A stretch of DNA of 64,000 bases from Macrocystis pyrifera (lineage: Eukaryota > Sar > Phaeophyceae > Laminariales > Laminariaceae), in the NCBI GenBank assembly GCA_031763025.1, contig JASSKH010000021.1, forward strand, positions 2,232,001 to 2,296,000, given 5' to 3'. Shown here piece by piece: positions 5,575 through 62,078 of this stretch. A model generated the notes under the pieces. That model made no database searches, was not told the origin of the DNA, and saw nothing but the letters and a program-made list of their open reading frames with translations. The position numbers and the translations under genes are program-made. Each line of letters starts with the position of its first letter. Position 1 is the stretch's first letter.

Positions 5575-5596
5575 ATAAGTCGATCTCGCAAGTTCG

Positions 5597-9874: not shown

Positions 9875-9983
9875 TATTACGGGGGTCCATAGTTAATAGG
9901 ACCTATGGTATAGATAAAAACCCATATATTTACCTATATTTACCAACAAAATTTGGTCCCGTTAACTATGGACCCCCGTAATA
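9875..9983 (-). mobile_element. MITE-like element A, copy 3
   Basis: 109 bases with perfect TATTACGGGGGTCCATAG ends. First of an inverted pair. Confidence 0.85.
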
Positions 9984-9993
9984 GTGCGACTAT

Positions 9994-10102
9994 TATTACG
10001 GGGGATCATAGTAAATAGGACCAAATAATGTTAGTAAAAATAGGAAAATATGTAGCTTTTTGTGTGTACCGTAGGTCCTATTTACTATGGACCCTTGTAA
10101 TA
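9994..10102 (+). mobile_element. MITE-like element A, copy 4
   Basis: 109 bases, opposite orientation to the copy 10 bases upstream. The right terminus is slightly eroded (CCCTTGTAATA). Confidence 0.85.
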
Positions 10103-11153: not shown

Positions 11154-11262
11154 TATTACGGAGGTCCATAGTAAATAGGACCAAATATTGTTAGTAAAAA
11201 TAGGTAAATATACAGGTTTTTATGCATACTATAGGTCCTATTAACTATGGATCCCCGTAATA
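11154..11262 (+). mobile_element. MITE-like element A, copy 5
   Basis: 109 bases with ends TATTACGGAGGTCC and GGATCCCCGTAATA. It shows the uninterrupted interior ATATACAGG used as the reference for the insertion in the 16249 copy. Confidence 0.85.
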
Positions 11263-21180: not shown

Positions 21181-21712
21181 GAGGGCGCGGGGGGGGGGGG
21201 GGAAGGGGGTACTCGATAGAAGAGATGTGCTCGATCTTATGCATGGCCGTAATCGTATGGCCATAGACCCTCGCATCCTTACAGTGTTGGGTTTTCACTG
21301 GCCAGGCCGATATTGCTGGCACCACGCGCGAAGCATCGTGAGGTGTCCGGCGAGTCGCATGAAGGGTGAGCTGCATCCTGCTAAGAACCGCTTGTGACGC
21401 GGACTTGCATATGGATGACAGCTTCAATGAGTTAATTTAATTTCCGGTGTAGCCACTTCCAGAGACAGCAATGAGGAGTACCATGTAACCGCCTCTCGGG
21501 TTCTTCACCATAAACACTACGTGATACGATCATTCCCACTTGTGCGGAGTAAAGGTTCTTCACTTCGCACAAATGATGAAACTTGACCACTAGCTGTGAC
21601 CGGCCGCCAAAAAAAAAAAAAAAATCGGTACCCTGGTTGTCTAGCGCAAGTAGTGAGCGGCATGTTTTACAGTGTCGTTGCCAACCAACGCCAATCCAAC
21701 GTATACACAATA
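21181..21712 (-). mobile_element. SINE-like element E, near full length
   Basis: Same order as the 38258-38800 copy, including a 16-base A-run (plus strand) at 21608 and the tail GGGGGTACTCGAT preceded by a G-run. On the plus strand the G-rich tail is at the left. Confidence 0.7.
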
Positions 21713-21718
21713 TAGGGC

Positions 21719-22010
21719 GGGGGGGGGAACGGGGGGGGGGGGGGAGGTGGCAGATGAGAGAAAGAGGGGAAGAAGGGGAGGGGGTAGCCATATCATGCAT
21801 GGCCGTAGTCGTATGACCATAAACCCTCGCATCTCTACAATGCCGGGACCGAGCACGTCGGGTTTTCACCGACCAGGCAGACACTGCTTGCACCAAGCGC
21901 GAAGCGCCGTCAGGTGTTCCACAAGTCGCATGAAGGGCGAGCTCCATCTACTAAAACCGCCCTTGAGGCGGGCTTCTTGTTTATCGACGACAGCGTGCAA
22001 TGGAAAGTTC
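21719..22010 (-). mobile_element. SINE-like element E, truncated
   Basis: The plus strand begins with G-runs (21719-21790), then CATGCATGGCCGTAGTCGTA and the conserved body to about 21995. The head is missing. Confidence 0.65.
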
Positions 22011-41500: not shown

Positions 41501-44500
41501 CATGCAAGAGATCGAGTACATCTCCCCCCCCCCCCTTATGTATTACCACTCCGACCCAAAATATAAGTGCCGTTTAGACTAAATAATTGTATGTTAAAGG
41601 TCCCTATATTTCGGGTCAGAGTGGTATATGGAAACAATGTAATGAGCGCCCAATTGTTGGAGGTGTCTCTATTAGGAGTACGAACGGTGCTCCGTATCGA
41701 AAGAGATGCGTGGTCAATGGTCAAATGACTAAGGCAAGCAACAAATGAGTACCCCCCCCCCCCCCACACACCCACCGCCTCCTTACTCCGTCGCTTTTTT
41801 TTCGCTCGACCCAATATTTCTTACGATGCTGTAAATATGCACATTTTTGTCTAGCAACGGCACCAGCGTGAACGGCGTGAAGCTCGGCAAGCGCAAGACC
41901 TCCGCTATACAGAGCGGAGACCGAGTGGCGCTCTACCTGCCCCAGGGTGCTACCCCCCTCGGGAGGCCCCTCCTCTACGTCCTCTCAGAGCTCTGCGAAG
42001 ACAAGTTTGAGCAGGTGCGAGGGCGGTTGTGGTACAGGGCAGGGACGGGGCGTACGTATGTTGGTTGCTTGGCCTTAGTCGTTTAACCTTTGATCACGCA
42101 TCACCCTTTTGAGACGGAGGACGGTTCGTACTCCTAACAGAGACACCTACAACGGTGGGGCGCTCGTTACGTTGTTTCCGGATATTTCGTAGAAACGTTA
42201 TGCTAATATTGTCCCGTTCCTGTTTCGTCACCTGTTGCCACCAACTATTTCGTGGAATAGCGATCGTTTTCTCGGTGCTTTCTGGTACACCAAACTCCTC
42301 CACGTCACACTCCTATATTTCTCTCATCGCACCTTCTAACACATCCCGTTCCTCGTTGTACATTTCACATTCTCCTATTATCAGAGTTGTACTCTCTATT
42401 GCTTTGCCGCACATCTGTGCATCCACTTCCTTCTTCTCCCGGCTACTGGTATTACTGTTTCTTCTTTCTAGCAGGTCCAGGTACCCGGTACGCAATCGCA
42501 GTTTCAGCGTTTTCGCGAAGTCCATTGGGCTGTGCAAATACGGTTTGATTCGTATGTTGTTGTTGTTTTCTTCACATTAAACCGTTCTTTCTACCCGTCG
42601 ACATCCAGCACAACCAGTGTCCGTGCCGATTCTTCAATCCTAGAGAGATACAAGTTCTGTGGACACAAAGCTACGCCACAGAAATACTACGTTGCCACGT
42701 ATGCAATGCAATGCCATGTCATCATACTGCGTACGACAGGCACGACATACACATTCCATGACCTAGAGAAACGAAACGAAACGAAACAAAGAGACAAAAA
42801 AAAACAAAAAGCAAAGAAGACAATTCGAAAGAGAAAAAGAAATCAAGAAATCCCTTCGTTTGGCCCGTATATTTTGAAGTGCGTCTCCGACTTCACCTCC
42901 TCATTTCTTGGCGCTATTATTAGTCTATCCCTTCTTTTTATGCTTTCTTTTAATTCCGTCTTGTACCTCCCAAACTCATCTACGGACATCATCTGTTCTT
43001 GGTTTCTTCCTATACCCTTCCATAGTTTCTCGACTACGCCATCCCACCTCATTCCAGCTCGCCCTTTTGTTGCCTTTTCCCTTACAGCTCGATCGACTAT
43101 GCTTGGCAACCTCTTCTTAGGCATTTTCCTTATCTTTAGTTGCCATTTCAACTTTCTCACGTCTCTATCTGTCTTGAGTGGGCACATTCCCAGTTCTGCT
43201 CTTAATACTGTATTGCTCGTCGTACTCGAGCATCTTAATTTTTTTCTAGCTACCTGTCATCTGTACTGTTTCCAGCTGTTTTGTCAAACTTTGCGTTCCC
43301 TTCCCATACTTTACTCGTCGTACTTGAGCTTCCTAGTTTTTTTTTTTTTTTTTGCTGCTGTCGTCTATGCTGTTTTCAGCTGTTTCACAAACTTCGCGTT
43401 CCCTTCCCATACTTCTCCTGCAGACTTATCATACTTTTCCTGCATATTCTAGCTTTCTTAGTGTCACTTTTATCAGGATACATATATTGATCCTACTACG
43501 GGGGTCCATAGTTAATAGGACCTATGTTGTACATAAAAACCTATATATTTACCTATTTTTACGAACAAAATTTGGTCCCATTAACTATGGACCCCCCCAT
43601 AATAGTGTCGAGGTGCGAGTCTGTTAGGATTGCATCCATCTTGCCTACGTGTGTTTTACCCTGTCCTATTTGTTTTGCAATGCGTGTATCCCAACAGCAG
43701 CCTTTTGATATCTCTACGCCAAGGTACGTATACTGGTCTGCGATCGGTAGTTCATCTTCTCCCCACTTGCAACTGAAATTTACCGGGTTCACCTCGTCTT
43801 CGTTGTTTACACCTGCGCACATCTTGACGTTTGCTGTCACCCTCCGTTTCGTAGTCTATTCTATTAATAGGGCGTTCTTTATTTGTTACTGCAATCTTCT
43901 GGTGTCCCCACGGAGTCATCCGCAAGCATCAATGCCGACGCTGCTGTATCTTCCGCCCCACCGTGACTCCCTGCTTTGCTGCTTCGACTGCTACCATCAG
44001 ATCGGTAATATATATATATATACCTTGAATATATTACGTGATGACGTACATCCCTGTGCAACTCCTTGTGATATATCAACGTGGAGAATGATGAAGTGGT
44101 GTGATGCTGGATGGGGAATTTTGGTGCTGGATGGGGAATTTTGATATTTCCCCATCCAGCATCACACCACTTCATCATTGCTCCACATCTTTCCTCGGAT
44201 TCCTATTTCCCACGACTTTTTCCTCAATCCGTACGAGTATCTCCACGCTTTGTCTTGGACTTTCTGTACACTAGAAACAAACAATACGTTGTTCGCCCCG
44301 CGTCTTTTCCTACCTTGGATTATCTTACCTAATGTGTACACATGGTTTGCTCAGCTACGTTCTGACCTAGCCCCTGCTTGCCCTTCGCTTACTTGGTCTT
44401 CCTTCTCCATCACTGCTCTCATTCTATCGATCGAAATCTTACAAAACGTTTTGCCTACTGTGCTTAGCAGTGTTAGCTCTCTACGGTTCCCCTGTTCAGC

Positions 44501-47500
44501 CTTTGTCTCCTTTCTTAGACTAGTTTACTATTACGGGGGACCATAGTAAATAGGACCAAATATTGTCAGGAAAAATAGGGAAATATTTAGGTTTTCGTGT
44601 GTACCGTAGGTCCTGTATGCTGTGGTCTCACGTAACACTACCCCCTTCTCTCCACCTCGTGGGTGCGTACTCGTATTTCCGTATCCAGTTGTACAGCATG
44701 ACTTATCATGGTGAGGATTCGTTCTGCCCCGTACTTCATAAATTCATGGACTATTTGGTCTGCCCTTGCCGCCTTTCTATTCTTCAGATTAGTATTACGG
44801 GGGGGGACCATAGTTAATAGGACCTACGGTACTCACAAACACCCATATATTTCCATATTTAGACTAACAATATTTGTTCCTATTTACTTTGGCCCCCCGT
44901 AATAGACACTTCTTTGCTTCTTCCCTTGTGAATCCTCTTTGTAATTTTTCTGAAGCACTGCTGTCTTCCCTTTCTGGTGCATACACTTTCGCCTCGGCCC
45001 ACGTCTTGATTTCCTTCTCGAATTCTGCGTCGAACGTTTCTGTTAATGGCGTACGGTAATCCGTAGTACTCCCCTTTCCCCCTTCGAACCACCAACCATT
45101 TTACCGTTTTGTGCTCTTAAGGTATTACAATGGCTATTTCCGTGTCTGCCACTCCTGCTTGTTTGCCTGGTACCCCTTTTATCCCTACCCACATCTGCTT
45201 CATCCCGCCCTCAAAGTCTTCATTCGTTTCATTTGCTGTTAAATACGTATTTACATATTTCCATATCGTTTTCTTCTTCTGTGCCGTCTCGTTCATTTTA
45301 TTTCTAGCTGCAGCTTATTCCTCCCATTCTGCCATAATTTTATTCCGTCCGTGTCTTGCGTTCGCCTCTGTCCTTACTCTTGTAGCCACCTTTACTTGCT
45401 CATCCCACCATTTTTTAATACTCCGTGGCATGCTGTCAACTTCTTCCCTGTTGCTTTTGCTTTCTGTGCTCTTGACCGATTGCTCCCACCCTTATAGTAT
45501 CTTTCAGTAGCTCCTGCATTTTCCCTCTCCATGTTTGGTACGGGGAAGGGGGTGGGGGGGGTGTACTCATTATCATGCATGGCCGTGGTCGTATGACCAT
45601 AGACCCTCGCATCCCTACAATGCTGGGACGGAGCGCGTCGGTTTTCACCGACCAGGCAGACATTGCTTGCACCAAGCGCGAGGCGACTCGCCCTGCCAGG
45701 GGGCGGGGTAGTCTTCCACTTGTTCGAGAAAATGGGGCTGGTTTATCACTTATTGCCCACTTTTTATGACGAACTAAACGTAGTCTAACTCTTTTCGAAT
45801 TGCACTGTTAGCAAACACGTATCTACTGTAGATCTAACTTGAAGTAACGTGCCCTCAACGGAAGTCCGGTTCCGAATGTGTTATATCCGCCAACGAACTC
45901 GAGACTTTTCGGTCGATCGCTCGCAACATCCCCCACATGCATATGAGAACGTTATGTTCGTGAATTTTTCGCACTTTTTCGAACAAATCGCGTCGTAAGG
46001 GCACTTTCTGGCGCGAGGCTATGTGTAGTCGACACGGGAAAGCCTGGCCGGCCGTATAGGTCAAGGTCCACGCGCGATCCGTGCAGTGTGGAGCGCGTGG
46101 CAATATTAATATATATATATATATATATATATGGATATCACCCCGGGGTGGTAATTTTCTGCCAGGTAAACCCGCGGTATTATCACCGGGGTGTGTTAGG
46201 TACTTGCTGTTGTTGATGGAATGACCCTGACTTTCATGTGCATGAACAACCAACCCTACTTTGTAGCGAGTGGCCGATGTATGTACCGAGGACTTTGTGT
46301 GGACCATCAGCCAGTTTGTCGAAGCAGAACCGTAGTTAGCAGGACCCATCATGAGTTACAGAAAAACTTGTATGTTCGTATGTTTTAACTATATGGTTGG
46401 TTCTGATTACTTTTTCCCTCCGTAATACCTTCGTAAACAACCCTAAGAAAGTCGCGCCTGTTGCAAGCAATGCCCGCCTGGCCGGTCAAAACCCGACGTA
46501 GGTGATCCGTCCCAGCGCTGTAGGGATGCGAGGGTCTATGGTCGTACGACTACGGCCATGCAGGGCATGGGTACACCCCCCCCTCCCTCTACTGTATATA
46601 CACATCCAACTACAGCAGTAGCCGTCTGCTGGTGCAAACATCCAACCCTCTGTATAAACCCCTCGAAAACCGCCTGCTGTCGCGCCTGCCAACCCCTTTC
46701 CCCTTTTTCATGTTTCCGTTCCCTGTTTACTAAATAACCCCCCCCCCCCCCCCCTTTCCTCTACCAACTCCTTTTCTCCCGTATTTTTCTTGCAGGCAAT
46801 CCTCGAGATTCCCCCGATCGTAGCCGGTTCCGGGAGGCAGAAAAAAGCGAAAGCTGCCGCCGCCGCCGCCGCCGCCGCCGCCGCAGCAGCAGCAGCAGCA
46901 CGAAAAGCATCATCATCGCCCGTAACATCCTCCGCCACGACTTCCATCTCCGCATCCAAATCGACCTCTGCCCACGGAATTCAAGGGGGCCGGGGGGGGG
47001 GCAAGGGGTGCAAGTCGTGGGAGTGGCTGGAGCGGTAGCGGGGGTGGGGGCGGGAAATGGGGAGGTGGCGGTGGAGGGAGGAGCGGGGGCAGGGGCTGGG
47101 GCGGTGACGGCGAAGGGGGGGGGGTGTGGGTGCCAAGGGAGGGGTGGGGGTGGGGGTGGGGGTTGGAGCGGCAGGGGCCAGGAGGGGGGGTTCGAGGGCG
47201 CCGGAGTCGTTGGTGCCGCCGCTTTCTCCGGTGGGGAGTCAAAGAAACGCCCTCGCGGTTTTGGATGATCAGGTACCATATTTTCGTGTACGGGGTTGGG
47301 GGAGTTTGGTTTGTGTTCGGTTCATGTCAGTGGCGCCTGTTTTTCGTTTTGTTTTTTCCTTTTTTACATTCTACGTTCAACGCACGTTTTTGTTGCTTGT
47401 GAGCAGGTCATCAGCAGGTTAGGACGGTGTATTGTATGCTGTGGCTACCCTACAGTGCGAGCCCCCTCCCCCTTCTTTTAATGCGTTCGAAGATACGGAA

Positions 47501-47821
47501 CGAGGTCACAGTGAACCCCTCCCCCCCCCCCCCCCCCCCCCCCCCTCCCGATGAAAGTACATATCACCCTTGAAATATATTTTGCAGCACAATAATGTGA
47601 CGAGACACTCACCGCCCTTGAACGCCCCTCGTATGGTTATATTACTGCGGCCACTCATGATATCGAGCACACCCTCTCTTCCCCCCGCCGCCTGCTCTCC
47701 CCAATTCATCCCTCACCTGTATCCTGGTATCAATTTTCTCTGACCCATTTTGTCTATTTTTTTTTTTTACGAAGATGGTGGTGAGAAAAGCGGGCACGGC
47801 GGAGGCGTGTAGCCCTGAGAG

Positions 47822-47859
<38 letters not shown>

Positions 47860-50800
47860 CCCCCGCGCTTGGTGCGAGAAATGTCTTCCTGTTCGGTGAA
47901 AATCCGACGTGCTCCGTCTCGGCATTGTAGGGTTGCGAGGGTGTATGGTCAGACGACTACGGCCATGCATGATAATGAGTACCCCCGCCCCCTGCCTGGT
48001 CGGTGAAAACCCGACGCGCTCCGTCCCGGCATTGTAGGGATGCGAGGGTCTATGGTCATACGACTACGGCCATGCATGATAATGAATACCCCCCGCCCCC
48101 CTGCGCACGCACGCGTCCGGCATCCGCCCCCAAAGCTATTGCCTTTGAATTGTCGTTGCAGTACAGGCACGAATTGTTGGTTCACTGCAAACCCTCCATT
48201 AACGTGGATCAGATACATAAGTCTACAGATATATCATCTACAGGTCAGATAGATCATCTACGGATCTTGCCGTTCTTGAGGTGTCGTGCAGGATCTGCAC
48301 AGTACAGATCCCGAATCAGAGAACATGTCCTATTGTAGATCGTGCAGGTTATTCGGCTCCCACCCGGCAACATGACCTATTCATAGATCATACACATCAT
48401 ACAGTCTAGGTCACGAAGTAGGAATGATCTGTACATGATCTGTACATGATCTGTACATGATCTGTACATGCCGTGGAACCCTCCCGATAGTGGCGACGGA
48501 CGGCGAAACAGAGAAGGGGATAAGATAAGCAGAACGTTTCTGTGTATCACATCAAGGGTACAACGAAAAAAAGATAACCTTGGCGCGCCACTTTTTTGTT
48601 TTCAAATCCCACATAGGTGTATGTGATTTCTGACAAAAATGGTTTGTTTTGATTTCTGACAAAAATCTCAACCCGATGTTAATAGGTGGTTTTCAATACC
48701 AACATGGTTGCAATTGTGGCACCGTTGTTCTCTTTTTTTTTTTTTTTCTTGTATCCCTGATCACGCAGAAGAAAAACGTAACGAACGCCAAAATGTTGGA
48801 GGACGCCAAAATGTTGGAGGCGTTTCTATTATAGGGGTAGGAGCGGTGCTTCGTACTGAAAGGGACAGCGTGGTCAATGATCTTTTACCAAAGTAAGTAC
48901 GCCTCCCTCCCTCCCTCCCGCCCTCACTTCCCCAACCTCCGATCCCCACCCCCGATTCATTGTTGTCATATTACGTTTTGGTATATTTTTTTCAAATTTT
49001 TCACATTTTTCACATTTTTTTTTCCCCCCGGTAAGGTGGCCATGAGAAAGGCGGGCGCGGCGGAAGCGTGCAAGTCCTGGGAGTCGGAGAGGGAGCAGCA
49101 GCTCGTGAGAGAGGCTCGAGCTTTGCGGTCGAAGCTTGAGGTGGCGGGAGAGGGCAACCAGCGACTCTTGTCGGAGAAGAACGCGCTGCAGGTGATTCGA
49201 GTAGGCGTGTCGAGGGAGGGGAATGCCGCAAAATGAGAGTTGGGTGCGCACAGGGGGTCGCACAACGCGGGGGTGCGGTCGTTTTCCAGCGCTGTTTTTT
49301 TTGTTTTTGTTTTTGTTTTGTTCTTGCCCAGAACGGGAATGTTGTCAGTACCGAACAAAGTAGGTGTGTGTTAGGGAAAAATTCTGGTCGAGAGAGGCTG
49401 AACGTTCCGGAAATAGAACGTACCTGGTACGACTCTAGCAGCCTTACCATCTAGAAAACGAGGGAGAGCGCTGAAAAACGATTGTGCACCCCTTCTGCGT
49501 GGACTCAACGCTATGTACGGTACTGATACTGGTATGTCATACACCTACTACACCAGTGGGCGGGACCCCCCCCCCCCCCCTCCGCACCTGCATATTGTGC
49601 GCTTAAAAAAATTATTGTGGAGACATAGAACAATGTGGCGCGCACGCCGTTGTAGACGTACCATACGGAATTCAGAGGTTATCGACACGTTGTGGGGTTT
49701 TGCTATTATATAATCTTTCTTCAATGTCTCCCCCCGATTTATATTTCTTTTGCCCACATTGTGCAAGCGGGGAGGCGGCGGGGGGGGGGGGCGGGGGGGG
49801 GAAGGGGAGTGTCCCTGCCGCCTGTGTGTACTGTATCCTAATACCGCTATGGACGGAATTGTAGAGTGCGTTAAAACATGAGTGTGGATATCAAACGTTG
49901 CTTACATTACCGTCCAGGGTGTTGTTTGGCTTTTGCGGGTTCCTTCGGAGAGGTGTACTTAGTATGAGTACTATTATAGGCGAGTAAAAATACGCAAAAA
50001 ACAAAAGTCGTCGCGCCGCTTTTTTGTGTCTTCGGGACCCGGGCCGGACGGGGGGCGGGGGGCGGGAGGCGTGGGACACTCATGTCATGTATGGCCGTTG
50101 TCGTATGGCCGTAGCCCCTCGTACCCCGCAATATCGGGAAGTAGCACGCCGGGTTTTCACCGACCAGGCAAGACGCACCAAGCGCTACACGCCATGAGGT
50201 GTTGGGCCAGTCGCACGAAGGGCGGGCTGCACCCTGCTAAGAGCCGCTCGGGAGGCGAACTTTCTTTGGTTGAATGACAACACCCGATGATTTTATATGT
50301 CTTCTGGTGTGTCCACTTCCAGAGAAGGCACTATTGGGTATACTATGTAACTGTGCCTCGTGGGTGCCTCACCGTATACACACTGTGTGATACGATCATT
50401 CCCCTTGTGCGGAGTTAAGGATGCCCACCCCGCACAAACTATCTAAGTCGACCGCCAGCCATCGCTACCGCCAACAATAAAATAACATGAAATAGATATA
50501 ACTAGCAGAGGTGGGGGTTTTAATAGTTGAAGGGCAGGCCTGCAGGGGAGTTGCAGAGGAGGAAGGCGGGGGAGTGCAGGAGGTGTAGACCTAGCGCCCA
50601 ACTTCTGCCGCCCCGGGTAAAGCCGTTGGCCCCATGAAACCCAAACCCAAACGAAGATTGATTCGTACATACGTAAAAGAAATCCGCAGGCAGCTATTAC
50701 AGGGGTCCATAGTTAATAGGACCTATGGCATACATTAAAAATTATATATTTGCACCTTTTTACTAACAAAATTTGGTCCCATTAACTATTGACCCCCGTA

Positions 50801-56800: not shown

Positions 56801-59800
56801 TCCAAGTATTTTCCCCCCCAAAACGCGATTACGATTCTAAAAGGGTTATAATACATGGTTTTGGAGGAAATCGATTCTGAGCTTCATCCCTAGGGGTGTG
56901 ATATGTTATCACCCGGGTGATACGGTAATGCCCCTATATGCTAACGCAGGATTGTTTTTTTTTATCGGGGGGAGGGGGGGGGCGTCACCTTTAGTTTCTA
57001 CGTGGGGAGCAGGGGAGACGACAACTGTGGCGACGACTTTTTTAGTCCAGAATGGCGCTGGGGTTATATTGCTTTAAAACCTCTCACGAGATGACCCGGA
57101 AGATTAAACGGATGTCCTCGAAATAAACAAACACGCACGGTTGGTACGGTACGATATGCGGTAGCTCTGCGTTTGAAGTGTTTAGCTGTTGTTGCAATTT
57201 TTTGCTTCTTCTCTTGTGATACTACCGTGTGTTTTTGTGTTTTATTTCGGGGGTCCATAGTAAATAGGACCAAATATTGTCAGTAAAAATAGGTAAATGT
57301 ATATATTTTTTGTGTGCACAAGAGGTCCTACTTACTATGGTCCCCCGTAATACTATTAATAGTAGTGTTTTTTTCACTCTTTCTGACTGTTTTGTTGTCG
57401 TGTTTTTTTCTTTGCCTTTTTTTTTTTTTTCGCTGCTGTAATTTTTTGTGCCACTGCGTATTGCTCCGAAGTTGCTGTACTGTTTTGTGCTACTGTATAT
57501 ACTGCTTTCATCCGTAGTGGTGGTTTTGCTGTTTCTGTTTCACCGTTTTACTGATTCGCTGTTTGTACGGTTGCGCTGCTGTGTACTACGTATTGTCTTT
57601 TCTGTGTGTTTTCTGCTTTGCTACGAACGGTGTCTCGATTTGAATGACGCAGGAGAGAGACGGAGCTACGGGGCCAGATCGACGGTCTCATCGCAGACAA
57701 GCACCAGATGCAGCAGAAGCTCGCGGAAGTGGCGGCGGAGTCCGAGTCGCGGTTTGCCGGACTGCAGGAGAGCAGGGTAGAGGTGGCGGAAGCCTTGGCC
57801 AAACTGTCGAGCCGGGACACGCAACTGAAGGATGTGCGTGTACCTGTTTTTGGTTTTGTTTTAATCTTGGCTTTGTTCACCTAGTGGTGGTGGTGGCGGT
57901 GGTGAAGGTGGTGGTGATGGTGTGCTCATGTCATGCGCGGTGGCCCTGGTCGAGGGCGGTGTTGGTGGTGGTGGGCGCGGTGTTCATTTTGGTGGTGGGA
58001 GGGGTGTACACTAGACCGTTCTAAATCGTCCCAATTCCCAGATCTATCCGGTGCCCTACTGTAAACCTGTCCAATGCCCCAAACCTATGCAGCATCCTAC
58101 CGCATGGGCGCATGGCACACTCCGTGCCAACCTCCATCACCACACCACTACCACCACCAGCACCGACTACACCTGGCCAGCATTACCACCACCCGCGCGT
58201 TCTGACGCAGCTCACACGTGCACACCCTGAACAGATCATGATCTATCTATCTACTGGCCTAGATCCTAGCTTGCCGTTGTGAGATGTTGTGCAGCATCAT
58301 CCATTGTTGTACTGCTGCAACCATGGAACGACGCCCTTTTATTGTCTTGTTTTGTGTTCGATTGTTTTTTTTCTGTAAAACGATTAATTTTTCTGGGAGT
58401 GTGTGCAGTTTTTTTTTTTCCGCTGCCCCCTCCCCCCATTATTTACTTTTCTGAGAACATGCAGGTTCCCCCCCCCCCCCCCCCCCCCCGCCCATTATTT
58501 ACTGAGAGCATATGCAGGTCCCCCCCCCCCCCCCCCTCCCCTACCGGTAACGTGAGCTATGCATCGATCATACTTTTCAGGAAGGTATCAGCCCTGAAAC
58601 CACCAAGTAGATCGTTCGAATGGGATACCGATTACTTTTCCGATGTGCGCACCTTCAGGCGCGCGATTCGGAGCAGTCCGTTCGGGACAGACTGACGGAG
58701 GAGGAGAGAGCCTCGGCCGCGGCAAGGCAGGAGAGAGCCGACGTGCAGGGTCAGCTGTCCCGCCGAGAACGAGAGGTGGGAAACTTGAGTAGACAACAGT
58801 CGGGTAGACTTGGAGTTCACAATACGGGTACGGGGCACGTTTTGACCGAATATTTCTATCTCACAGCCGACGTTTTTTTTTTTCTTTTTTTTCTTCGTAT
58901 GTGTGTAATGTGTACGTACCAGCGCACATTTTTTTTACGATAGTTACGATTTGTCCACCTTTTTGCATGCGTCGTCCTCTGCTCTGCTCTGCTCTGCTGT
59001 CGTGCCGCGGTGGCGCGGCCCTTGCAGCTGGAAGCCTCCGAAGAGGCTTTGAAGAGTCTCCAAGGATGCGAGGACGAAGCCAAGCGCTTGTCGGCCGAAC
59101 TGCTGGAGAGCGAGGTATTTTTTTTTTTCCGGCGGGGTTGTTCATGGGTCAGGTCCCTCGCGGGTCGTTCGGGTCTGTTCGGGTCAGGGTGACCCGACCC
59201 GACCCGACCTGACGTGACCGAACCCGTGAGATTTAGAACAGATAAATTGCGCAGCTTGCGAAGTGGGGTATCAACTATTATATTAGCCGAACGCACAACT
59301 GGCGTATTCGTAATTATTTTATATACCCTCCTGACCCGAACCGACCCGACCCGTTATACTTCGACAACCTCCTGACCGGTCAAGAGCCCTGGTGATACCC
59401 CCTTTTGAATTGGACACACTTTTTTGGGACAGCTAACTTGGAATTAGTGTGGGATATTTTTCTAACGTGATAATCTGTACCTCCCCGAGCGGAAATGGTC
59501 TTCATAGGTTGGTGGCTTTGAACCCTAACCCTGACGCTCTGCCAAAAAAAACACGTATCCCCATTTTGCCCCCCCCCCAGGAAGGGGATAAGATTAGCCA
59601 AAAGTTTCTACGTGATATATGAAAACAGCGTAATGAGCGCCAAAATGTTGGAGGTGTCTCTATCAGGAGTAAGAATGGTGCTCCGTCTCGAAAGGGATGC
59701 GTGGTCAATGGTCAAATGACTAAGGCAGGCAACAGATGAGTACCCCCCCGCTCCCCGAGTACGCCCACACCCCCCCCCCCTCCCTCCCCACTGGGAAAAA

Positions 59801-62078
59801 AAATCAACTTATTCTACGGTGTCATCCGTATGCAAGAAAGCCCGCCGCACCATCGGTTCTTAGTAGGATGCAGCTCACCCTTCATGCGACTCGCCGAACG
59901 CCTCACGGTGCTTTCGCGCTTGGTGCAAGCAATCTTTGCCTGGTCGGTGAAAACCCGACGTGCCTCGTCCAGGCATTGCAGGGAGGGGAGGGTATTTGAT
60001 AAAAATACTATGGCCATGCATGATAATGAGTCCCCCCCCCCCCCCCCCTCCCTCCCCCTTCCCCGGTGATATATGGTTGTTAATAATGGTGGAAAATTGC
60101 ACGCAACGCCTACCCAGGCGGCATTTACTCGCGAGGCGAAGGGTCTGGAGCAGGTTAAGGCCGAGCTTGAGAGGGAGAGGGGGACCCGGCAAACGGAGGG
60201 CGAGGCTATGGCCGCTCTGGAGAAGGAAGCCGCCGCGTTAAGGCTGGAAGAGAAGCGGCTTAAGGTGCGCGGGGATACGTACATGTGTTTGGGGATATAC
60301 AGTAGTAGTCCCGCTATATAGTGCCTGTATGTATGCGCCAGCCAACAATATACCGGCACTATTGCGGCAACCAACCGGCACTAATTTCTCCGCACAGTGC
60401 CACATTAGTTAATACTCCCATTTGTGTCTGCCAAGCGATTTGGCAGGCACTGCTATAGCGGGCAGGCGGCACTATCCACACACAACCGGCACTATAGAAG
60501 GACCACTGCTGTACTACACCCCTGTTTCCGAGGAGACGTAGACGGGGGGGGGCATACTAGAACCAGCTCAAAAACACGTATTGCTTCGGTTCGTACGGAA
60601 ATATTGCTTTGCTTCGTGCGTACTTCGTGCGTAAATCCTACCCCAGCGCTGAGGCGGGGTTGGGGATGTGGATAGGGGTGAGAGTTGATGGGGAGTTTGG
60701 GTGGGTTAGAGACTGGGGGGGATGGAGGCAGCGGGTGGAGTGGCAGGGGGAGGGGCAGGTTCCCCGGGGGGGGGGGGGGGGGGGGGTCGAGGATGGTTAG
60801 GGGTGGATGGTTGAGGTTGGATGTAAGCGGGGAAGTATTGGATCCTTGTCCGCATTCCCACCGCTAGTATATGGGGTTAACTATGGAATTCGAGTTGATG
60901 GGAACCGGCCAGGTATGGTTCCAGAAGGGTACGAGAAGGGGCTGTTTCGATAACATGAAGGCACACTACCCAAAAGCTAACCCCACCCCACACCCGTGCA
61001 CTTAGCCCTTTCGTTTTCTGCACAAGTTTGCCTGGATGAATTCGGGCTGAAAAATTCACTACTATGGGCGGAAATATAAAGACCATTAATACATTTAACA
61101 TGAATACCAAGCGGTCCTTGTATTGACAGACACCGAGAGTGGTATTATGCTACGAGTATAGTGTGAACCATATGTACAGTAGTTCCTTTCTGGATGGAGA
61201 TGTGGGGACCGCTTTTTTTAGTATTCTATATTTGTTATTAAACGTTTCTTATACTGCCGTCCAGGGGGGTACGCCACACCACTTTAGTTATCTCTTGTTT
61301 TGGCCCAACCAATTTCCGTTTTGGTGTTGTTATCTCTGGTGCAAATGCCGACGAGCTGAAACTGCTCAACTTTCAGGTTCTTGAGTGCTCCCTCGTACTG
61401 GTGTACTGGTACATTCTTTTCCACTCTTAGCCCTTTTAGTGCCGCAGTCCTTTTTTGGGGACAAACCACTTGGAATTAGACTGGTTTGTCCCCAAATCGG
61501 GACTGCGGTACTAAAGGGGTTTCAACCCTACGTCCTACTTACGTATCAGGTACCTGGTACCAGACCAGATAGATTTTGTGTAATCGTGAGCGACTGGCAA
61601 AGGCTGTTTTTGTTTTTGTTTTGGCCTGTATCCACTTCATTCATTTTTCCTGCGTTCGTTTTGTGTCTCTCTGCTTCATGTTTGCATTTCGCCCAACCGA
61701 GCAGAAACTTGTGGAACAGGCGAAAGAGGCGGCCGGCAGAATAAATATTGCCAGTATGAGAAAGGGCCAAGCTTCGTGTACGTGTTCAATTGTTCGTCTA
61801 CTCTGAACCCCATAGGTTTATCATGAAACGCCGAAGGGTAAATTCGCGTACCAGGTACACTGTTTTTTTTTGTGACCTATTTCCAGTTCGTTCAAGTTTC
61901 TAGCGTTTGGTGGTTGCGTGCCGGCGATCCCTCTATTTCTCGTCGTGTTTTTGACCGAACCGAACAGAAACTGGTGGAAGAGGCGGCGGTTTTTACCGAG
62001 GCATCGAAGGCGGATGCGAAACGGGCCGCAATAGAGCTGGAGGCCACCCGCAAGACCCATCGCGCAACGGTTGCACAG
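29372..62078 (+). CDS. FHA domain / coiled-coil protein gene, 12 exons, 3' end open
   Basis: This is a composite gene model. Coding exons are 29372-29509, 39558-39706, 41855-42014, 46796-46921, 49036-49191, 51447-51530, 52184-52302, 57653-57833, 58659-58775, 59028-59114, 60118-60264 and 61968-62078. Together they give 525 codons without a stop. All introns are GT-AG and all phases agree, including two split codons (AG|C at exons 2/3 and AG|G at exons 7/8). Residues about 41-145 form an FHA domain, which binds phosphothreonine peptides. Residues 150-191 are a linker with poly-Ala. Residues 192-525 are Glu/Arg/Ala/Gln-rich heptad-like coiled coil. FHA plus coiled coil is seen in RNF8 (which then has a RING) and in SLMAP, so a signalling scaffold or E3 ligase is plausible but unproven. 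No RING or membrane anchor was found before the window ends. Introns reach 10 kb and are packed with mobile elements. Confidence 0.8.
30225..30725 (+). repeat. CTATCGATAG satellite array 1
   Basis: About eleven 40-60-base units of type TCTATCGATGGCCATTGCCG then GCCACAATAGATTGTGCGAG. Each unit carries the palindrome CTATCGATAG (often one base off) and an ATTG...CAAT hairpin. In intron 1. Confidence 0.85.
31082..31112. repeat. Short CTG repeat
   Basis: About eight CTG units with one CTCG interruption, in intron 1. Confidence 0.8.
31650..32265. other. No gene; part of intron 1
   Basis: AT-rich sequence with two related stretches (31855-31990 and 32020-32215) sharing AATTCGATTTA(A/T)TACCCTTA and GTTTCTTAACTCGATGTTTTTG-like ends, so probably a diverged local duplication. 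Confidence 0.5.
32265..32830 (+). repeat. CTATCGATAG satellite array 2
   Basis: More diverged units with ATCTATCGATAGACAGCG and GCCAGTCTATTGTCG. Confidence 0.8.
33195..33695 (+). repeat. CTATCGATAG satellite array 3
   Basis: About ten units, the best preserved being CATCTATCGATAGCCATTGC then CGGCCACAATAGATCAAGAA. Confidence 0.85.
34084..35249 (-). repeat. Family F repeat, copy 4, inverted
   Basis: 1.17 kb in the opposite orientation to copies 2-3, lying in intron 1. It ends at a GCGGGCGGC-GTAG-GCCGCCCGC hairpin followed by GGAACGAAGCGCCTTG, then the next unit starts. Confidence 0.8.
35250..35690 (-). repeat. Family F repeat, copy 5, truncated
   Basis: Head-to-tail with copy 4. It follows ACTACTTACATAGATCTCG to about 35690, with an internal deletion relative to copy 4. 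Confidence 0.75.
36003..36162. mobile_element. Two fused palindromic element B copies
   Basis: Two CTTGGAAATTGAG / CTTATAAGTTGAG centres with three arm segments (GGACTGCAGGC, GGGCCTCCAGTCCTAAAAG, GGGACTGCAGTCCTA). The right end carries TACAGCAGTA. Confidence 0.6.
37415..37480 (+). repeat. GGGTC pentamer tract in intron 1
   Basis: About eight GGGTC pentamers between AAATCTCTTGGTGTAA and CCAGGTCGGGTAAGG. Confidence 0.8.
38258..38800 (-). mobile_element. SINE-like element E, near full length
   Basis: Read on the minus strand: a head around 38800 (GTCGTTTGGCAACGACAC), a 27-base T-run at 38700, a conserved body with GAAAACCCGACATGCTCCG and CTACGGCCATGCATGA, and a 3' end of GAGTAC repeats followed by CCCACCCCCC. 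No protein is credible. Several copies keep the same short ORF (HGRSRMTIDPRIPTM), which more likely reflects DNA similarity. A non-autonomous element moved by the LINE is inferred from the shared tail. Confidence 0.7.
39190..39355 (+). repeat. 32-base tandem repeat with GGGTTAGGG
   Basis: Five units of TTGCTCTGATTGGCTCAGGG plus TCAGGGTTAGGG. The flank GTCTCGTACACAG..GTGTCAACCATTTT is shared with 62390-62510 and more weakly with 63415-63480. Confidence 0.85.
39558..39706 (+). CDS. Exon 2: core of FHA domain
   Basis: Starts after a TTTTGACAG acceptor and ends at an AG|GTAC donor, in phase 0 and out phase 2. Residues 47-95 contain the FHA signature: STYVGR with Gly51-Arg52, then ISSGHCRL with Ser71 and His74, then EDTS. 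The usual basic residue between Ser and His (SRRH in many family members) is replaced by Ser-Gly, which could alter peptide preference. Codon use is GC3-rich like the other exons and unlike the flanking repeats. Confidence 0.85.
40647..40935 (-). mobile_element. SINE-like element E with 27-base poly-G tail
   Basis: The uninterrupted G-run 40648-40674 is followed by TTACTCATTATC and CATGGCCGTGG, then the conserved body ending at CCATTTCCAGAGACAG. Minus-strand element, truncated at its 5' end. Confidence 0.7.
41333..41535 (+). mobile_element. SINE-like element E, truncated
   Basis: Plus-strand copy starting CTTCTTAGTAGGATGCAG and ending GATCGAGTACATCT plus 11 C. It lies directly before a palindromic element and a LINE tail in intron 2. 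Confidence 0.7.
41544..41626. mobile_element. Short palindromic element C
   Basis: Inverted arms TACCACTCCGACCCAAAATA and TATTTCGGGTCAGAGTGGTA around an AT-rich loop. Lies between a SINE-like tail and a LINE tail. Confidence 0.65.
41632..41765 (+). mobile_element. Truncated LINE 3' end with poly-C tail, copy 1
   Basis: It shares with the LINE C-terminus the block coding NERPxVxGVSIRS, then GCGTGGTCAATGGTCAAATG, and ends ATGAGTAC followed by 14 C. The reading frame stops at a codon overlapping the tail. Lies in intron 2, 90 bases before exon 3. Confidence 0.8.
41855..42014 (+). CDS. Exon 3: C-terminal half of FHA domain
   Basis: The acceptor is TTTTTGTCTAG and the donor is GAGCAG|GTGCGA. The first base completes the Ser codon split with exon 2 (AG|C), giving DTSSNGTSVNG. 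Asn97 and Asn102-Gly103 are the canonical FHA phosphopeptide and loop residues. IQSGDRVALYLP and a closing strand LLYVLSEL follow, matching the last beta-strands of FHA folds. The exon leaves in phase 0 with DKFEQ. A truncated LINE tail with its C-run lies just upstream in intron 2, and an antisense LINE relic begins about 30 bases downstream. Confidence 0.87.
42047..42537 (-). pseudogene. LINE ORF C-terminus: zinc knuckle and terminal tail
   Basis: 42537-42313 (minus) codes RTGYLDLLERRN and a Cys-x2-Cys-x12-Cys-like motif (CGKAIES..IIGECEMY). 42303-42094 codes the terminal segment NISITFLRNIRKQRNERP..VGVSVRS. This terminal segment is the part that recurs as 5'-truncated copies at 41632, 48505 and 59579. 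The sequence ends in ACGTACGCCCC, matching the GAGTAC plus C-run of the other copies. Confidence 0.75.
42843..43490 (-). pseudogene. LINE RT C-terminal region with internal duplication
   Basis: The minus frame 43187-42843 is open for 114 codons (MPKKRLPSIVDRAVRE, AGMRWDGVVEKLWKG), the region between the RT thumb and the zinc knuckle. Upstream, a segment coding VWEGNAKF..KQL occurs twice (about 43375-43440 and 43255-43330), separated by a 17-base T-run. It is an internal tandem duplication not expected in an active element. Confidence 0.75.
43494..43604 (-). mobile_element. MITE-like element A, copy 9, in LINE
   Basis: It interrupts the LINE RT frame at the codons for Asp-Thr-Arg. Removing the element with one TA restores GACACTAGGATCAAT (DTRIN) on the minus strand. 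This shows a TA target duplication. Confidence 0.85.
43605..44528 (-). pseudogene. Reverse transcriptase domain fragments
   Basis: The minus-strand frames carry the RT core: TLLSTVGKTFCKI (fingers), then a region interrupted by a fold-back at 44087-44179, then DISQGVAQGCTSS, LADDSVG with the catalytic Asp pair, and DQYTYLGVEISKG. Several stops and shifts show the copy is dead. The right end is cut by MITE copy 44529-44637 and the left by 43494-43604. Confidence 0.85.
44087..44179. repeat. Fold-back inverted duplication in LINE RT
   Basis: Perfect 32-base arms (44087-44118 and 44148-44179, starting AATGATGAAGTGGTGTGATG) with an inner direct repeat GGTGCTGGATGGGGAATTTT. One arm is RT coding sequence, so the other is an inverted duplicate created in place. 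Confidence 0.85.
44529..44637 (+). mobile_element. MITE-like element A, copy 10, in LINE
   Basis: Ends TATTACGGGGGACC and GGTCTCACGTAACA, inserted between LINE segments coding the RT palm and KETKAEQ. Confidence 0.83.
44793..44904 (-). mobile_element. MITE-like element A, copy 11, in LINE
   Basis: Ends TATTACGGGGGGGGACC and GGCCCCCCGTAATA. It separates GFTREEAKK-type and LKNRKAAR-type LINE segments. Confidence 0.83.
45540..45695 (-). mobile_element. SINE-like element E, short copy abutting LINE relic
   Basis: G-rich tail, then GTACTCATTATCATGCATGG and the body to the GCACCAAGCGCGAGGCG block. It marks the 5' truncation point of the antisense LINE. Confidence 0.65.
46105..46132. repeat. AT dinucleotide repeat
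   Basis: About thirteen AT units, followed by ATCACCCCGGGGTGGT, a member of the ATCACCCGGGTGAT palindrome group also seen at 7470, 7690-7765, 56310-56410 and 56905. Confidence 0.85.
46330..46428 (-). mobile_element. Decayed MITE-like element A
   Basis: Only the right end CTCCGTAATA and scattered internal blocks (TTAGCAGGACC, TTGTATGTTCG) resemble the family. Confidence 0.4.
46458..46587 (+). mobile_element. SINE-like element E, short copy
   Basis: Starts GTTGCAAGCAATGCCCGCC and ends CATGGGTACACCCCCCC. An 8-base variation lies in the middle (GACGTAGGTGATCC). In intron 3, 200 bases before exon 4. Confidence 0.6.
46796..46921 (+). CDS. Exon 4: linker with poly-alanine run
   Basis: A strong acceptor (polypyrimidine tract then TTGCAG) opens a phase-0 frame AILEIPPIVAGSGRQKK, followed by about 17 alanines from a GCC run changing to a GCA run. 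I place the donor at CCC|GTAACA because it keeps phase 0 for exon 5. The frame stays open to a TAG at 47036, so the 3' boundary is the least certain of the model. A Gly-rich, GC-rich stretch ending in the basic string SKKRPRGFG (about 47040-47268) is in another frame and may be a frame-shifted coding extension. Confidence 0.55.
47522..47695 (+). repeat. Poly-C run and decayed element E-like tail
   Basis: A long C-run (47521-47545) is followed by non-coding sequence whose end, CGGCCACTCATGATATCGAG then CACACC and C-rich sequence, resembles the tail of element E. Identity is low, so assignment is tentative. Confidence 0.35.
47775..47821 (+). pseudogene. Ghost copy of exon 5 (5' 47 bases)
   Basis: After a T-run and the acceptor-like ACGAAG, the sequence reads MVVRKAGTAEAC against VAMRKAGAAEAC in exon 5. 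About four fifths of the bases are identical. One base is missing after the Cys codon, so the frame breaks, and the copy stops at a 36-base C-run followed by a SINE-like element. It keeps its own acceptor but has no donor. It is best read as an exon duplication disrupted by repeat insertion. Confidence 0.7.
47822..47993 (+). mobile_element. SINE-like element E behind a 36-base poly-C run
   Basis: C-run 47822-47858, then CGCGCTTGGTGCGAG and the conserved body ending ATGATAATGAGTACCCCCGC. It replaces the rest of the ghost exon at 47775. Confidence 0.65.
47993..48098 (+). mobile_element. SINE-like element E, tandem short copy
   Basis: Begins GCCTGGTCGGTGAAAACCC directly after the tail of the previous copy and ends ATGATAATGAATACCCCCC. 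The two copies share orientation and junction, as in serial tail insertion. Confidence 0.65.
48190..48480 (+). repeat. Dispersed repeat I, copy 2
   Basis: GTGCAGGATCTGCACAGTAC and CCCGGCAACATGACC as in copy 1, with four tandem GATCTGTACAT at the end. Intron 4. Confidence 0.65.
48505..48905 (+). mobile_element. LINE 3' end, copy 3, split by an insertion
   Basis: 48505-48552 matches the GGGGATAAGAT..AGC part of copy 2. Similarity resumes at about 48775 with AACGAACGCCAAAATGTTGG and ends AAGTAAGTACGCCTCCC. The intervening roughly 210 bases begin with an A-run and end with a T-run plus imperfect inverted ends (CTTGGCGCGCCAC against GTGGCACCGTTG), so a small DNA element probably landed here. The NxVGG block is also duplicated once. 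Confidence 0.65.
49036..49191 (+). CDS. Exon 5: first coiled-coil exon
   Basis: 52 codons, phase 0 to 0, between GGTAAG|GTGGCC and CTGCAG|GTGATT. The translation runs VAMRKAGAAEACKSWESE and then alternates Arg/Glu/Gln with Leu at heptad-like spacing, ending RLLSEKNALQ. A decayed copy of its first 47 bases lies 1.26 kb upstream at 47775. Confidence 0.8.
50040..50480 (-). mobile_element. SINE-like element E, diverged copy
   Basis: G-rich tail at the left (50048-50070), then GACACTCATGTCATG and the body. The CCACTTCCAGAGA block and GTGATACGATCATTCCC segment follow to about 50480. Lies in intron 5. Confidence 0.65.
50695..50803 (-). mobile_element. MITE-like element A, copy 12
   Basis: Ends TATTACAGGGGTCC and GACCCCCGTAATA, intact spacing. 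Intron 5. Confidence 0.83.
51000..51410 (+). repeat. ATGATATGATGTGATATAAG minisatellite
   Basis: Tandem 27-base units (GGTATGATATGATATGATGT plus GATATAA), at least five between 51240 and 51345, in a wider TATGA-rich tract. Codes ISYH-type repeats only. In intron 5. Confidence 0.85.
51447..51530 (+). CDS. Exon 6: short coiled-coil exon
   Basis: 28 codons, phase 0 to 0, from AAGCAG|GACCAA to ACGCAG|GTGGGA. It reads DQLADADSARRLEEQ and continues with a Gln/Glu-rich helix ending ELAKTQ. It follows directly after the TATGA minisatellite at 51000-51420 in the preceding intron. The acceptor may alternatively be 3 bases upstream, adding one Gln. Confidence 0.75.
52184..52302 (+). CDS. Exon 7: Ala/Glu-rich coiled-coil exon
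   Basis: The acceptor CTTAACAG follows a 20-base C-run. The frame reads EALTEAEADKEEAAREAAS, then CEARAEKADRGQAEARKELE. It ends with a split codon AG before GTTAGATG (phase 2), which is completed by the G of exon 8 5.35 kb away. The downstream intron begins in a SINE-like and DDLS minisatellite region. Confidence 0.78.
52550..52910 (+). repeat. GATGATCTATCTGTA minisatellite
   Basis: 15-18-base units that read DDLSVDDLSD-like in one frame. The frame has no support as a gene and lies in intron 7. Confidence 0.8.
54700..54775 (-). other. tRNA-like segment
   Basis: The minus strand carries TCTAGCGTAGCGAAAGCC and GAGGTTCGACTCGCACC at B-box spacing, without a convincing cloverleaf. Confidence 0.25.
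56508..56940 (+). repeat. Tandem duplication carrying element B
   Basis: Two units of about 210-220 bases, both with GCGGTAAATATGTTT, TACCGCACTGTGCAGAAACA, a decayed element B and TCATCCCTAGGGGTGTG-type ends followed by ATCACCCGGGTGAT. Confidence 0.75.
57243..57352 (+). mobile_element. MITE-like element A, copy 13
   Basis: Ends TATTTCGGGGGTCC and GGTCCCCCGTAATA. Intron 7, 300 bases before exon 8. Confidence 0.83.
57653..57833 (+). CDS. Exon 8: longest coiled-coil exon
   Basis: After TGACGCAG the G completes the Arg codon of exon 7. Sixty codons follow: RETELRGQIDGLIADKHQMQ and then a helical stretch ending LSSRDTQLKD at GAT|GTGCGT. Leucines recur at a/d-like positions. The matching phase 2/1 junction with exon 7 is independent support for the model. 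Confidence 0.82.
58229..58616 (+). repeat. Dispersed repeat I, copy 3, split by an insertion
   Basis: The left part (58229-58300) and right part (58545-58616, GAGCTATGCATCGATCATAC, CCCTGAAACCACCAAGTAGA) match copy 1. About 240 bases with two C-run units lie between them. Confidence 0.65.
58430..58540 (+). repeat. Duplicated CCCATTATTTACT unit with C-runs
   Basis: Two units CCCATTATTTACT..GAGAACATGCAGGTT and CCCATTATTTACTGAGAGCA each followed by 15-20 C. Confidence 0.75.
58659..58775 (+). CDS. Exon 9: coiled-coil exon
   Basis: 39 codons, phase 0 to 0, from ACCTTCAG|GCG to CGAGAG|GTGGGA. It reads ARDSEQSVRDRLTEEERASA and ends in Arg/Glu-rich heptads (QLSRRERE). The preceding intron holds a dispersed repeat split by a C-run-bearing insertion. 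Confidence 0.8.
59028..59114 (+). CDS. Exon 10: coiled-coil exon
   Basis: 29 codons, phase 0 to 0, from CTTGCAG|CTGGAA to AGCGAG|GTATTT. The translation is LEASEEALKSLQGCEDEAK then RLSAELLESE, a clear amphipathic helix. Confidence 0.8.
59138..59395 (-). repeat. GACCC pentamer minisatellite, diverged
   Basis: GACCCGACCCGACCTGACG and later GAACCGACCCGACCCG with GAGATTTAGAAC-like spacers, the complement of the blocks at 1862 and 2415. In intron 10. Confidence 0.7.
59579..59748 (+). mobile_element. Truncated LINE 3' end with poly-C tail, copy 2
   Basis: The coding remnant reads GDKISQKFLRDI, a stop, then KQRNERQNVGGVSIRS and MTKAGNR, then TGA. The TGA is immediately followed by GTAC and 7 C. 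This copy shows best that almost no 3' UTR separates the ORF stop from the C tail. Confidence 0.8.
59815..60060 (+). mobile_element. SINE-like element E with poly-C tail
   Basis: Starts CATCCGTATGCAAGAAAGCC and ends GATAATGAGT followed by 17 C and further C-rich sequence. Exon 11 starts 58 bases later. Confidence 0.7.
60118..60264 (+). CDS. Exon 11: coiled-coil exon
   Basis: 49 codons, phase 0 to 0, from TACCCAG|GCGGCA to CTTAAG|GTGCGC. The sequence is AAFTREAKGLEQVKAELERE followed by a basic/acidic helix ending LRLEEKRLK. It begins about 60 bases after the C-run tail of a SINE-like copy (59815-60060). Confidence 0.8.
61426..61522. mobile_element. Palindromic element B copy
   Basis: The arms CCCTTTTAGTGCCGCAGTCC and GGGACTGCGGTACTAAAGGG and the same TTGGAATTAGACTGG centre. 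Located in intron 11, just before the ghost of exon 12. Confidence 0.8.
61600..61753 (+). pseudogene. Ghost copy of exon 12 with upstream intron
   Basis: 61705-61753 reads KLVEQAKEAAGRIN after CCGAGCAG, against KLVEEAAV after CCGAACAG in exon 12. About 90 bases of upstream intron also align without gaps to 61870-61967. A GTATGAG donor-like site follows at 61754 but would leave phase 1, incompatible with the next exon. Splicing it in would shift the frame, so it is probably dead or mutually exclusive. Confidence 0.6.
61968..62078 (+). CDS. Exon 12: last recognised coiled-coil exon
   Basis: 37 codons, phase 0 to 0, from ACCGAACAG|AAACTG to GCACAG|GTTGGT. It reads KLVEEAAVFTEASKADAKRA and ends RKTHRATVAQ. 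A tandem, partly decayed copy of its 5' end and upstream intron lies at about 61600-61753. No later exon could be recognised in the remaining 1.9 kb, so the gene probably continues past the window. Confidence 0.75.

Follow-up and report, generated by a model that had tools for sequence, protein, structure and literature searches.

A LINE and a SINE-like element with related tails ending in C-runs, and C-runs as their insertion target, in the genome of Macrocystis pyrifera

Human L1 and Alu carry a poly-A tail and are primed from a T-rich primer, and several non-LTR elements, including Waldo, Mino, Kibi, and Koshi, target microsatellites. Closer to the case described here are the stringent-type pairs, such as UnaL2 and its SINE in eel, TS/RTE in tobacco, and SINEX-3/L1-1_CR in Chlamydomonas (PMC3747384). 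The 3' repeats named for plants and green algae in the available portion of that survey are (A)n, (T)n, (CA)n, (TTG)n, (ATT)n, and others, and (C)n does not appear there (PMC3747384). Furthermore, according to an excerpt on sequence-specific elements, Togen is specific to (TG)n and stands among relatives of NeSL with a restriction-like endonuclease (PMC4640811). The excerpt of a brown-algal genome paper gives the shares of Jockey, Tx1, L1, and SINE and describes no tails (PMC6418280). Among the titles and abstracts listed by literature searches, with most subscription journals, Repbase, and preprints outside their scope, there was no poly-C-tailed LINE or SINE.

Here, we analysed a window of 64 kb (the whole stretch of DNA under study) and scanned the genome, which comprises 537,376,219 bases in 223 contigs. 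The original prediction was that three truncated LINE ends and one antisense LINE finish in (G)AGTAC or a close variant followed by C. GAGTAC plus C's is present exactly at 41632-41765 and 59579-59748, and the remaining two ends are degenerate, reading AAGTACGCCTCCC in the 48505-48905 copy and ACGTACGCCCCGTCCC in the antisense copy, where GTAC ends at 42052 and C4 at 42047 (Table 1). At least eight copies of a SINE-like element, E, had been expected to finish in the same way; the window contains 11 copies or fragments, most of them GAGTAC-like at the end and with C's 0 to about 25 nt on. With at most one mismatch allowed, the window contains 15 occurrences of GAGTACCCCC, against an average of 4.05 and at most 10 in 100 shuffles. 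The exact form of this motif occurs four times, two of them in LINE copies, and the literal ATGAGTACCCCC is rare within the window. Genome-wide, ATGAGTACCCCC was counted 2,891 + 2,960 = 5,851 times, against 58 + 58 = 116 for the reversed control.

Table 1. Copies of the LINE and of E, with adjoining C-rich stretches, in the 64-kb window.
Feature	Coordinates	Strand	Remarks
E, nearly full-length, diverged	21239..21705	-	
5'-truncated E, degraded end	21790..22002	-	
Near full-length E, about 505 nt	38288..38792	-	tail subfamily with GAGTAC duplicated
5'-truncated E	40676..40935	-	end TAATGAGTAA, then long C-run
5'-truncated E	41321..41519	+	end GATCGAGTAC ATCT C-run
5'-truncated LINE copy, last 126 nt	41627..41752	+	end AAATGAGTAC; 95% to reference copy
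C13 tail of LINE copy 41627..41752	41753..41765	+	
Longest window LINE copy, RT to C-terminus	42052..45532	-	matches from 42061; reference nt 2826-5475
C-rich stretch from E tail to LINE 5' end (reads as G on plus)	45533..45562	-	
5'-truncated E	45563..45685	-	end GAGTAC-A-C-run
5'-truncated E, degraded end	46452..46562	+	GGGTACACCCCCCCC
E immediately 3' of long C-run (from about 47822)	47864..47982	+	end GAGTACCCCC
E inside C tail of E 47864..47982	47992..48089	+	end GAATACCCCC
Degenerate LINE 3' end	48486..48900	+	degraded end AAGTACGCCTCCC; matches 48486-48546, 48804-48882
E, old copy (77%)	50078..50487	-	
C10 run immediately 5' of LINE copy 59578..59743	59569-59578	+	
5'-truncated LINE copy	59578..59743	+	end AGATGAGTAC, C-rich tail after
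E 3' of C tail of LINE 59578-59743	59794..60031	+	end TAATGAGTCC, then C-run

The antisense LINE is broken up by other repeats. Three of these interruptions belong to an element of about 100 nt with many copies and inverted-repeat-like ends such as ATTACGGGGGACCATAG, which in the window lies at 5466-5578, 9875-10102, 11154-11262, 43493-43590, 44524-44614, 44793-44904, 50693-50803, and other places. Its G/C ends contribute short C/G runs independent of the LINE/SINE pair.

With the LINE 3' end as query (123 nt, from the window copy 41627..41752), 965 candidate places were found genome-wide, and every one of the 40 that were scored is at least 95% identical. Thirty copies (L009-L038) were picked via this end and fetched. 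In 28 of them AATGAGT(AC or variant), in some cases with a single G or A after it, leads directly into at least three C's, and the remaining two read GCCGCCCC and GTACCCC. Because these 30 had been picked by their 3' end, we picked a second sample by a reverse-transcriptase (RT) fragment. Here GAGTAC or a similar motif, mostly followed by G and then by C's, was present in 6/6 and 11/12 copies (17/18 together), and one of the twelve pieces in the second set (L141) had no LINE-end match. The 18 RT-picked LINEs and the genome-wide SINE starts described below are our only tail-blind samples. Copies running past the C-run would have spoken against the original prediction, and the RT-picked copies do not run past it. 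Among the 43 mapped LINE insertions, 5' truncation is variable (starts from reference nt 2918 to 5422), the 3' end is constant, and the base after GAGTAC is G in 27. The same prediction would have suffered had C-runs occurred equally often beside unrelated sequence. A search with RVT_1 had first raised a different LINE, part of which (the L056 group) became a control; all eight copies with a sequence reaching the 3' end finish in (CA)n, and a C-run of at least 5 follows within the next 40 nt in 0/8 of this unrelated family. The eight are 96.6-99.4% alike in pairwise matches. A related group (L039, about 82%) is RTE-like by eye, with copies mostly 98-99.5% alike and frames of >1,000 aa, and fragments of the L056 group lie in the window at 10677-10864 and 42552-42686.

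By its predicted domains, the LINE is an APE-type non-LTR retrotransposon. A 708-aa frame of copy L132 contains a reverse transcriptase domain (PF00078, E 6.9e-28), and its matches in the PDB include LINE-1 ORF2p (E 2.6e-20), although the scores for L1 and R2 (2.6e-20 and 1.1e-19) are too close to place it in the L1 clade. Upstream of the RT, an APE endonuclease was predicted in the close relative P0048 (PF03372, E 7.4e-13), which is 84% identical to the LINE over 24% of the query. In the LINE copy at hand (L137+L132) the frame is broken and APE-like motifs are readable by eye; no Pfam family scored in a 216-aa piece of this copy, and a search of the PDB for the endonuclease found none. The relatives P0002 and P0019 have a C-terminal CxCx8Hx4C knuckle. 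The best homologues from a named source are unnamed Ectocarpus proteins (P0001, 58% identity over 95%), which places the host in or near the brown algae, and no relatives were confirmed in IMG/VR and GTDB contigs.

The sequence first described as E is the 3' portion of a longer element, about 500 nt in length. Upstream matches halt at a shared start in roughly a dozen loci, and a short E of about 120 nt was rejected on this ground. E has a TATA-rich leader and internal T-runs, and its copies are mostly 5'-truncated at varied points, like LINE-made copies. Exact genomic copies of a 22-mer from the 3' end of E number 2,712 (controls, 0), and CCC follows GAGTAC immediately in 764 of them. Sixty SINE copies (L069-L128), picked by an exact 22-mer ending in GAGTAC, were fetched whatever follows; 30 have one A and then at least three C's, 14 pass directly into C's, and 16 are other, with a C-run of at least 5 within 25 nt after GAGTAC in 53/60. 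The base after GAGTAC is A in 42 of 64 SINE insertions. Consensus patterns for the A and B boxes of Pol III, which in this simple form can miss diverged boxes, were absent from two near full-length copies with T-runs inside, and in copy L013 neither a tRNA (ARAGORN) nor an Rfam family above the cut-off was found. The element is called SINE-like for this reason.

E had been regarded as unrelated to the LINE, and this view had to be given up. The last 74 nt of E are homologous to the final 66 of the LINE. Their alignment scores 60 against a shuffle maximum of 37 (2,000 shuffles), and 49 against 33 when the last 9 nt are removed; an unrelated SINE was rejected through this homology beyond the GAGTAC motif. 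The idea of a partner SINE that borrows the tail of its LINE, with C's in place of A's, fared better, given homology well past GAGTAC and an end at C's in 17 of the 18 RT-picked LINEs. These comparisons support the LINE and E as a tail-sharing LINE/SINE pair, in which the LINE would mobilise the SINE in trans. Folded each alone, the two tails were predicted to share one plan, in which GUGCUC pairs with the terminal GAGUAC and two hairpin arms are enclosed. In both elements GAGUAC is the 3' arm of the predicted closing stem and adjoins the C-run. As evidence, the energies of these folds carry little weight, with z values of -2.07 (LINE end), -0.53, and -0.05 (two SINE ends). More telling for a shared structure is the pattern of the 12 mismatches between the LINE and SINE tails, only two of which fall within the 42 paired of 66 columns (P = 0.0004). 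These two make up one compensating pair, and the intermediate U-G at this pair was found in 19/31 LINE copies. A second E subfamily has a longer end with GAGTAC twice; its predicted fold has an extra hairpin round the first GAGTAC, and the last one, beside the C-run, forms the closing stem. From this fold, the element seems to require GAGTAC directly before the C's.

In the LINE, the shared tail is coding. Its last 66 nt are the final codons (...GCVVNGQMTKASNK), followed by the stop TGA, GTAC, G, and the C-run. The stop codon near the C tail had been remarked on in copy 59579, where it is indeed found, but it is not confined to that copy, as TGA lies inside the motif (AAA-TGA-GTAC) throughout the family. 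P0002 and P0019, which come from other sources and are 89% identical over the covered part, have the C-terminus MTKASNK, as in the LINE. Furthermore, G(C/R)VVNG or a close form stands 4 to 8 residues from the C-terminus in 16/101 homologues, distant ones included, some of the 16 being near relatives of one another, and it is absent from the other 70,162 residues of the homologues. The remaining 85/101 homologues do not show it, and some of these may be C-terminally incomplete. In the 50 residues preceding the motif, pairwise identity per column is 3-16%, the last few apart. The motif was picked by eye, which makes columns 0 to 5 partly circular, but not columns -5, -4, 8, and 10. We treat the conserved motif as a lead, which would fit a constraint at the RNA level.

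We then considered the 5' side of the insertions. From 159 element ends, 108 rows were left after we required flanks of 40 nt (5') and 80 nt (3'), an element of 30 nt or more, and distinct 3' flanks, with L001, L003, L006, L007, L008 (both orientations), and L009 excluded as duplicates, cut copies, or the window's own copy. Removal of the duplicate L028 gave 107 insertions (43 LINE, 64 SINE); L028 is still included in the counts of 38/55 and 17/82, in the chain counts, and in the common-prefix test below. A C-run of at least 5 was found within 25 nt 5' of the insertion in 32/43 LINE and 45/64 SINE cases (77/107, the other 30/107 having none), and a G-run in 0/43 and 0/64, where the window background is 3.7% for C-runs and 3.0% for G-runs. 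Among the 5'-truncated SINEs alone, the C-run was present in 38/55, so it is not part of the element's own start. The genome-wide SINE starts agree with this pattern. A 22-mer near the start has 1,962 + 2,017 copies. When C6 was counted upstream of it, overlapping matches swelled the forward-strand figure (12,429), and we therefore used the reverse strand, on which every copy is listed once. CCCCCC lies 12-42 nt upstream of 1,621/2,017 reverse-strand starts and GGGGGG upstream of 6/2,017 (window background over a 36-nt span, 2.6% C6 and 1.8% G6), these starts being copies and not independent insertions, as look-alike flanks on different small contigs and evenly spaced copies on C125 indicate. 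On that contig (G000:C125:1504381-1622764), SINE starts lie about 11 kb apart, as if a larger unit that includes the SINE were repeated in tandem. The C-run thus also serves as the insertion target, a point absent from the original prediction, with a strict strand bias, and the target of the LINE is non-random and strand-specific.

A poly(C) tail added to the RNA after transcription, combined with insertion at unrelated sites, would explain a C-run at nearly all 3' ends, but it predicts neither 5' C-runs at 77/107 insertions without G-runs nor C6 at 1,621/2,017 SINE starts. Contradicted by the 5' junctions, this candidate was rejected, and we consider it very improbable. Even less credence is due to an assembly artefact or to coincidence in a genome rich in C: C/G homopolymers are frequent, with 45 runs of at least 8 in 64 kb, but the strict strand bias, the (CA)n control, and the background of 2-4% all contradict it. 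The elements had also been proposed as the source of many long C/G homopolymers, which is correct for a part of them. Twelve of the 45 runs of at least 8 adjoin a copy on the right strand (wrong strand, 0/45), while 33/45 do not; these runs without a detectable copy may derive from old copies, other elements, or slippage.

A C-run of at least 5 occupies the preceding 40 nt in 82/108 rows, and in 41 of these 82 the end of another copy or a GAGTAC-like motif lies at most 90 nt before (the motif alone occurs in 17% of random 90-nt windows). Nested chains are also seen within the window. The antisense LINE (45532-42052) stands with its 5' end against the C tail of E 45563-45685, the C-rich stretch 45533..45562 between them being an in-window case of insertion into a C tail; the tail of E 47864 contains E 47992, and E 59794 comes after the tail of LINE 59578. 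At L034, a LINE end is joined via GCCC to the 3' part of E. No clean empty site was found, the 56 candidate rows resembling, for the most part, chains of related elements and not alleles. In many listed cases a full-length SINE is separated from the C-run by 0-1 nt, and truncated copies often leave a few bases between. At L003 and L007, an E-like fragment of about 12 nt (ATCATGAGTAC) stands between two C-runs and is followed by another truncated E, as would result from extreme 5' truncation or a template jump.

Target-site duplications were sought by masking the C-runs and comparing words common to the 5' junction and the 3' flank with permuted pairs. In the 107 insertions, duplicated words of at least 7 nt were seen 10 times (expected 1.89), of at least 8 nt 6 times (0.67), and of at least 9 nt 5 times (0.35). 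This word test replaced one on the longest common prefix after the C-runs, whose excess was weak (at least 5 nt: 8 vs 2.46). In seven of the ten words of at least 7 nt (L014, L020, L029, L034 LINE, L036, L037, and L096), C's precede the word by at most 3 nt on each side; L083 conforms once an overlapping word is used, and L018 and the L034 SINE row do not. Duplicated words outside the C-run are confined to roughly one insertion in ten, so that few insertions demonstrate a staggered cut. When both cuts fall within the C-run, the duplication is invisible, and the same applies to full-length SINEs abutting the run. The scarcity of duplications beyond the run (10/107 at 7 nt or more) and the direct abutment of 17 of the 82 junctions with a 5' C-run would be natural if insertion were endonuclease-independent. 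According to this explanation, G-runs break or stall (G-quadruplexes), their G-rich 3' ends prime on any C-bearing RNA, and the LINE endonuclease does not choose the site. However, the six duplications of at least 8 nt, where 0.67 would be expected, suggest that cuts were staggered, an APE domain is present in P0048 (PF03372), and the (CA)n LINE of the same genome has a 3' C-run in 0/8 copies. We therefore rate an endonuclease-independent origin as improbable.

The lengths of the C-runs bear on how many C's the RNA supplies, although assemblies do not render the length of homopolymers reliably. When the longest C-runs in equal 40-nt windows were compared, the 3' run exceeded the 5' run in 29/43 LINE insertions (median 15 vs 8), and only modestly so for the SINE (38/64, median 9.5 vs 8). 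Based on this comparison, the RNA probably adds C's in the LINE, and in the SINE the argument is weak. Eight copies have a duplication beside C's; in L014, L029, L037, and L096 the 3' run is the longer one, in L020 the runs are equal, and in L034, L036, and L083 the 3' run is shorter, which means that the RNA need not bring many C's. Insertion could thus be target-primed at C-runs with a run that is almost wholly the target's, the RNA ending in GUAC(G/A) and no more than two or three C's. L034 (C6 5', C3 3'), L083 (C23, C4), L036 (C15, C14), L020 (C9, C9), and L096 (C3, C4) would each require only a small number of C's from the RNA, and the SINE medians point the same way. On the other hand, the LINE medians, the increase from C8 to C17 in L029 and from C9 to C16 in L037, and the family-specific G or A before the run, which must derive from the RNA and places priming downstream of that base, are at odds with it, and we regard such a target-only run as unlikely, though a serious candidate. 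In L088, L027, and the window at 59738-59766, GTAC or GAGTAC is repeated within the tails (GAGTACGTACCCC, GAGTACAGTACACCC, and GAGTACCCCCCCGCTCCCCGAGTACGCCC), which suggests that the template end was re-engaged while priming.

The explanation that we favour, and think likely, is target-primed reverse transcription at C-runs by a LINE and SINE-like pair sharing a tail, with a G-run priming on the C's of the RNA. The LINE protein would probably recognise an RNA fold, about 70 nt long, with GUGCUC/GAGUAC as its closing stem; in the LINE this fold would consist of the last 20 or so codons plus GUAC. Next in the RNA would come one base that differs between the families, G for the LINE and A for the SINE, followed by a number of C's. 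Within a C/G homopolymer of the genome, the G strand would be opened by the endonuclease or at a pre-existing break, and the 3'-OH of the G-run would pair with the C's of the RNA and prime reverse transcription. A second cut would fall within or just 3' of the C-run, yielding the product C(n)Y - element - GUAC(G/A)C(m) - Y. With such a layout, each insertion would leave a C-run able to receive the next copy. A wider reading, on which we are nearly evenly divided and lean slightly against, is that the LINE is specific to homopolymer C and carries its RNA signal inside its own last codons, that a SINE-like parasite copied the signal, that the two elements renew the poly-C tracts they insert into, and that target, tail, and template maintain one another genome-wide. 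Part of this reading is that the C-terminal motif is kept after a near-random stretch, as if the RNA and not the protein were conserved.

If insertions create sites for more insertions, a part of the C-runs in this genome would be footprints of retrotransposition. Such runs are hard to assemble and prone to instability, and annotation that expects poly-A or AT-rich tails could overlook families of this kind. Among known systems, the stringent pairs resemble this one in that 80-100 nt or so of the SINE 3' end derive from the LINE, a terminal repeat is common to both partners, and stringent types have an RNA stem-loop, as described in the portion of the survey at hand (PMC3747384). Set against the pairs in that portion, the terminal run here is C, and the common tail is the end of the LINE coding sequence and not a 3' UTR. 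The (CA)n LINE of the same genome, RTE-like by eye only, is likewise a LINE with a simple-repeat tail, but its tail is without a C-run. Microsatellite-targeting elements share the use of a simple repeat as target and differ in that here the target is a mononucleotide C-run, used by an abundant SINE-like partner too. As far as the excerpt on Togen goes, its kin have a restriction-like endonuclease, whereas the relatives of this LINE have an APE. Human L1 and Alu are alike in that a homopolymer tail pairs with a homopolymer primer at the target and the endonuclease is of the APE type, in the terms of the same portion of the survey (PMC3747384). They differ in using A/T where C/G is used here, and in that a specific 3' sequence is common to the partners here. 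Homopolymer pairing and a stringent 3' structure would thereby be combined in one system, which makes the reading of the RNA end by the LINE protein testable, and the pair would offer a C/G counterpart to the A/T logic of L1 and Alu.
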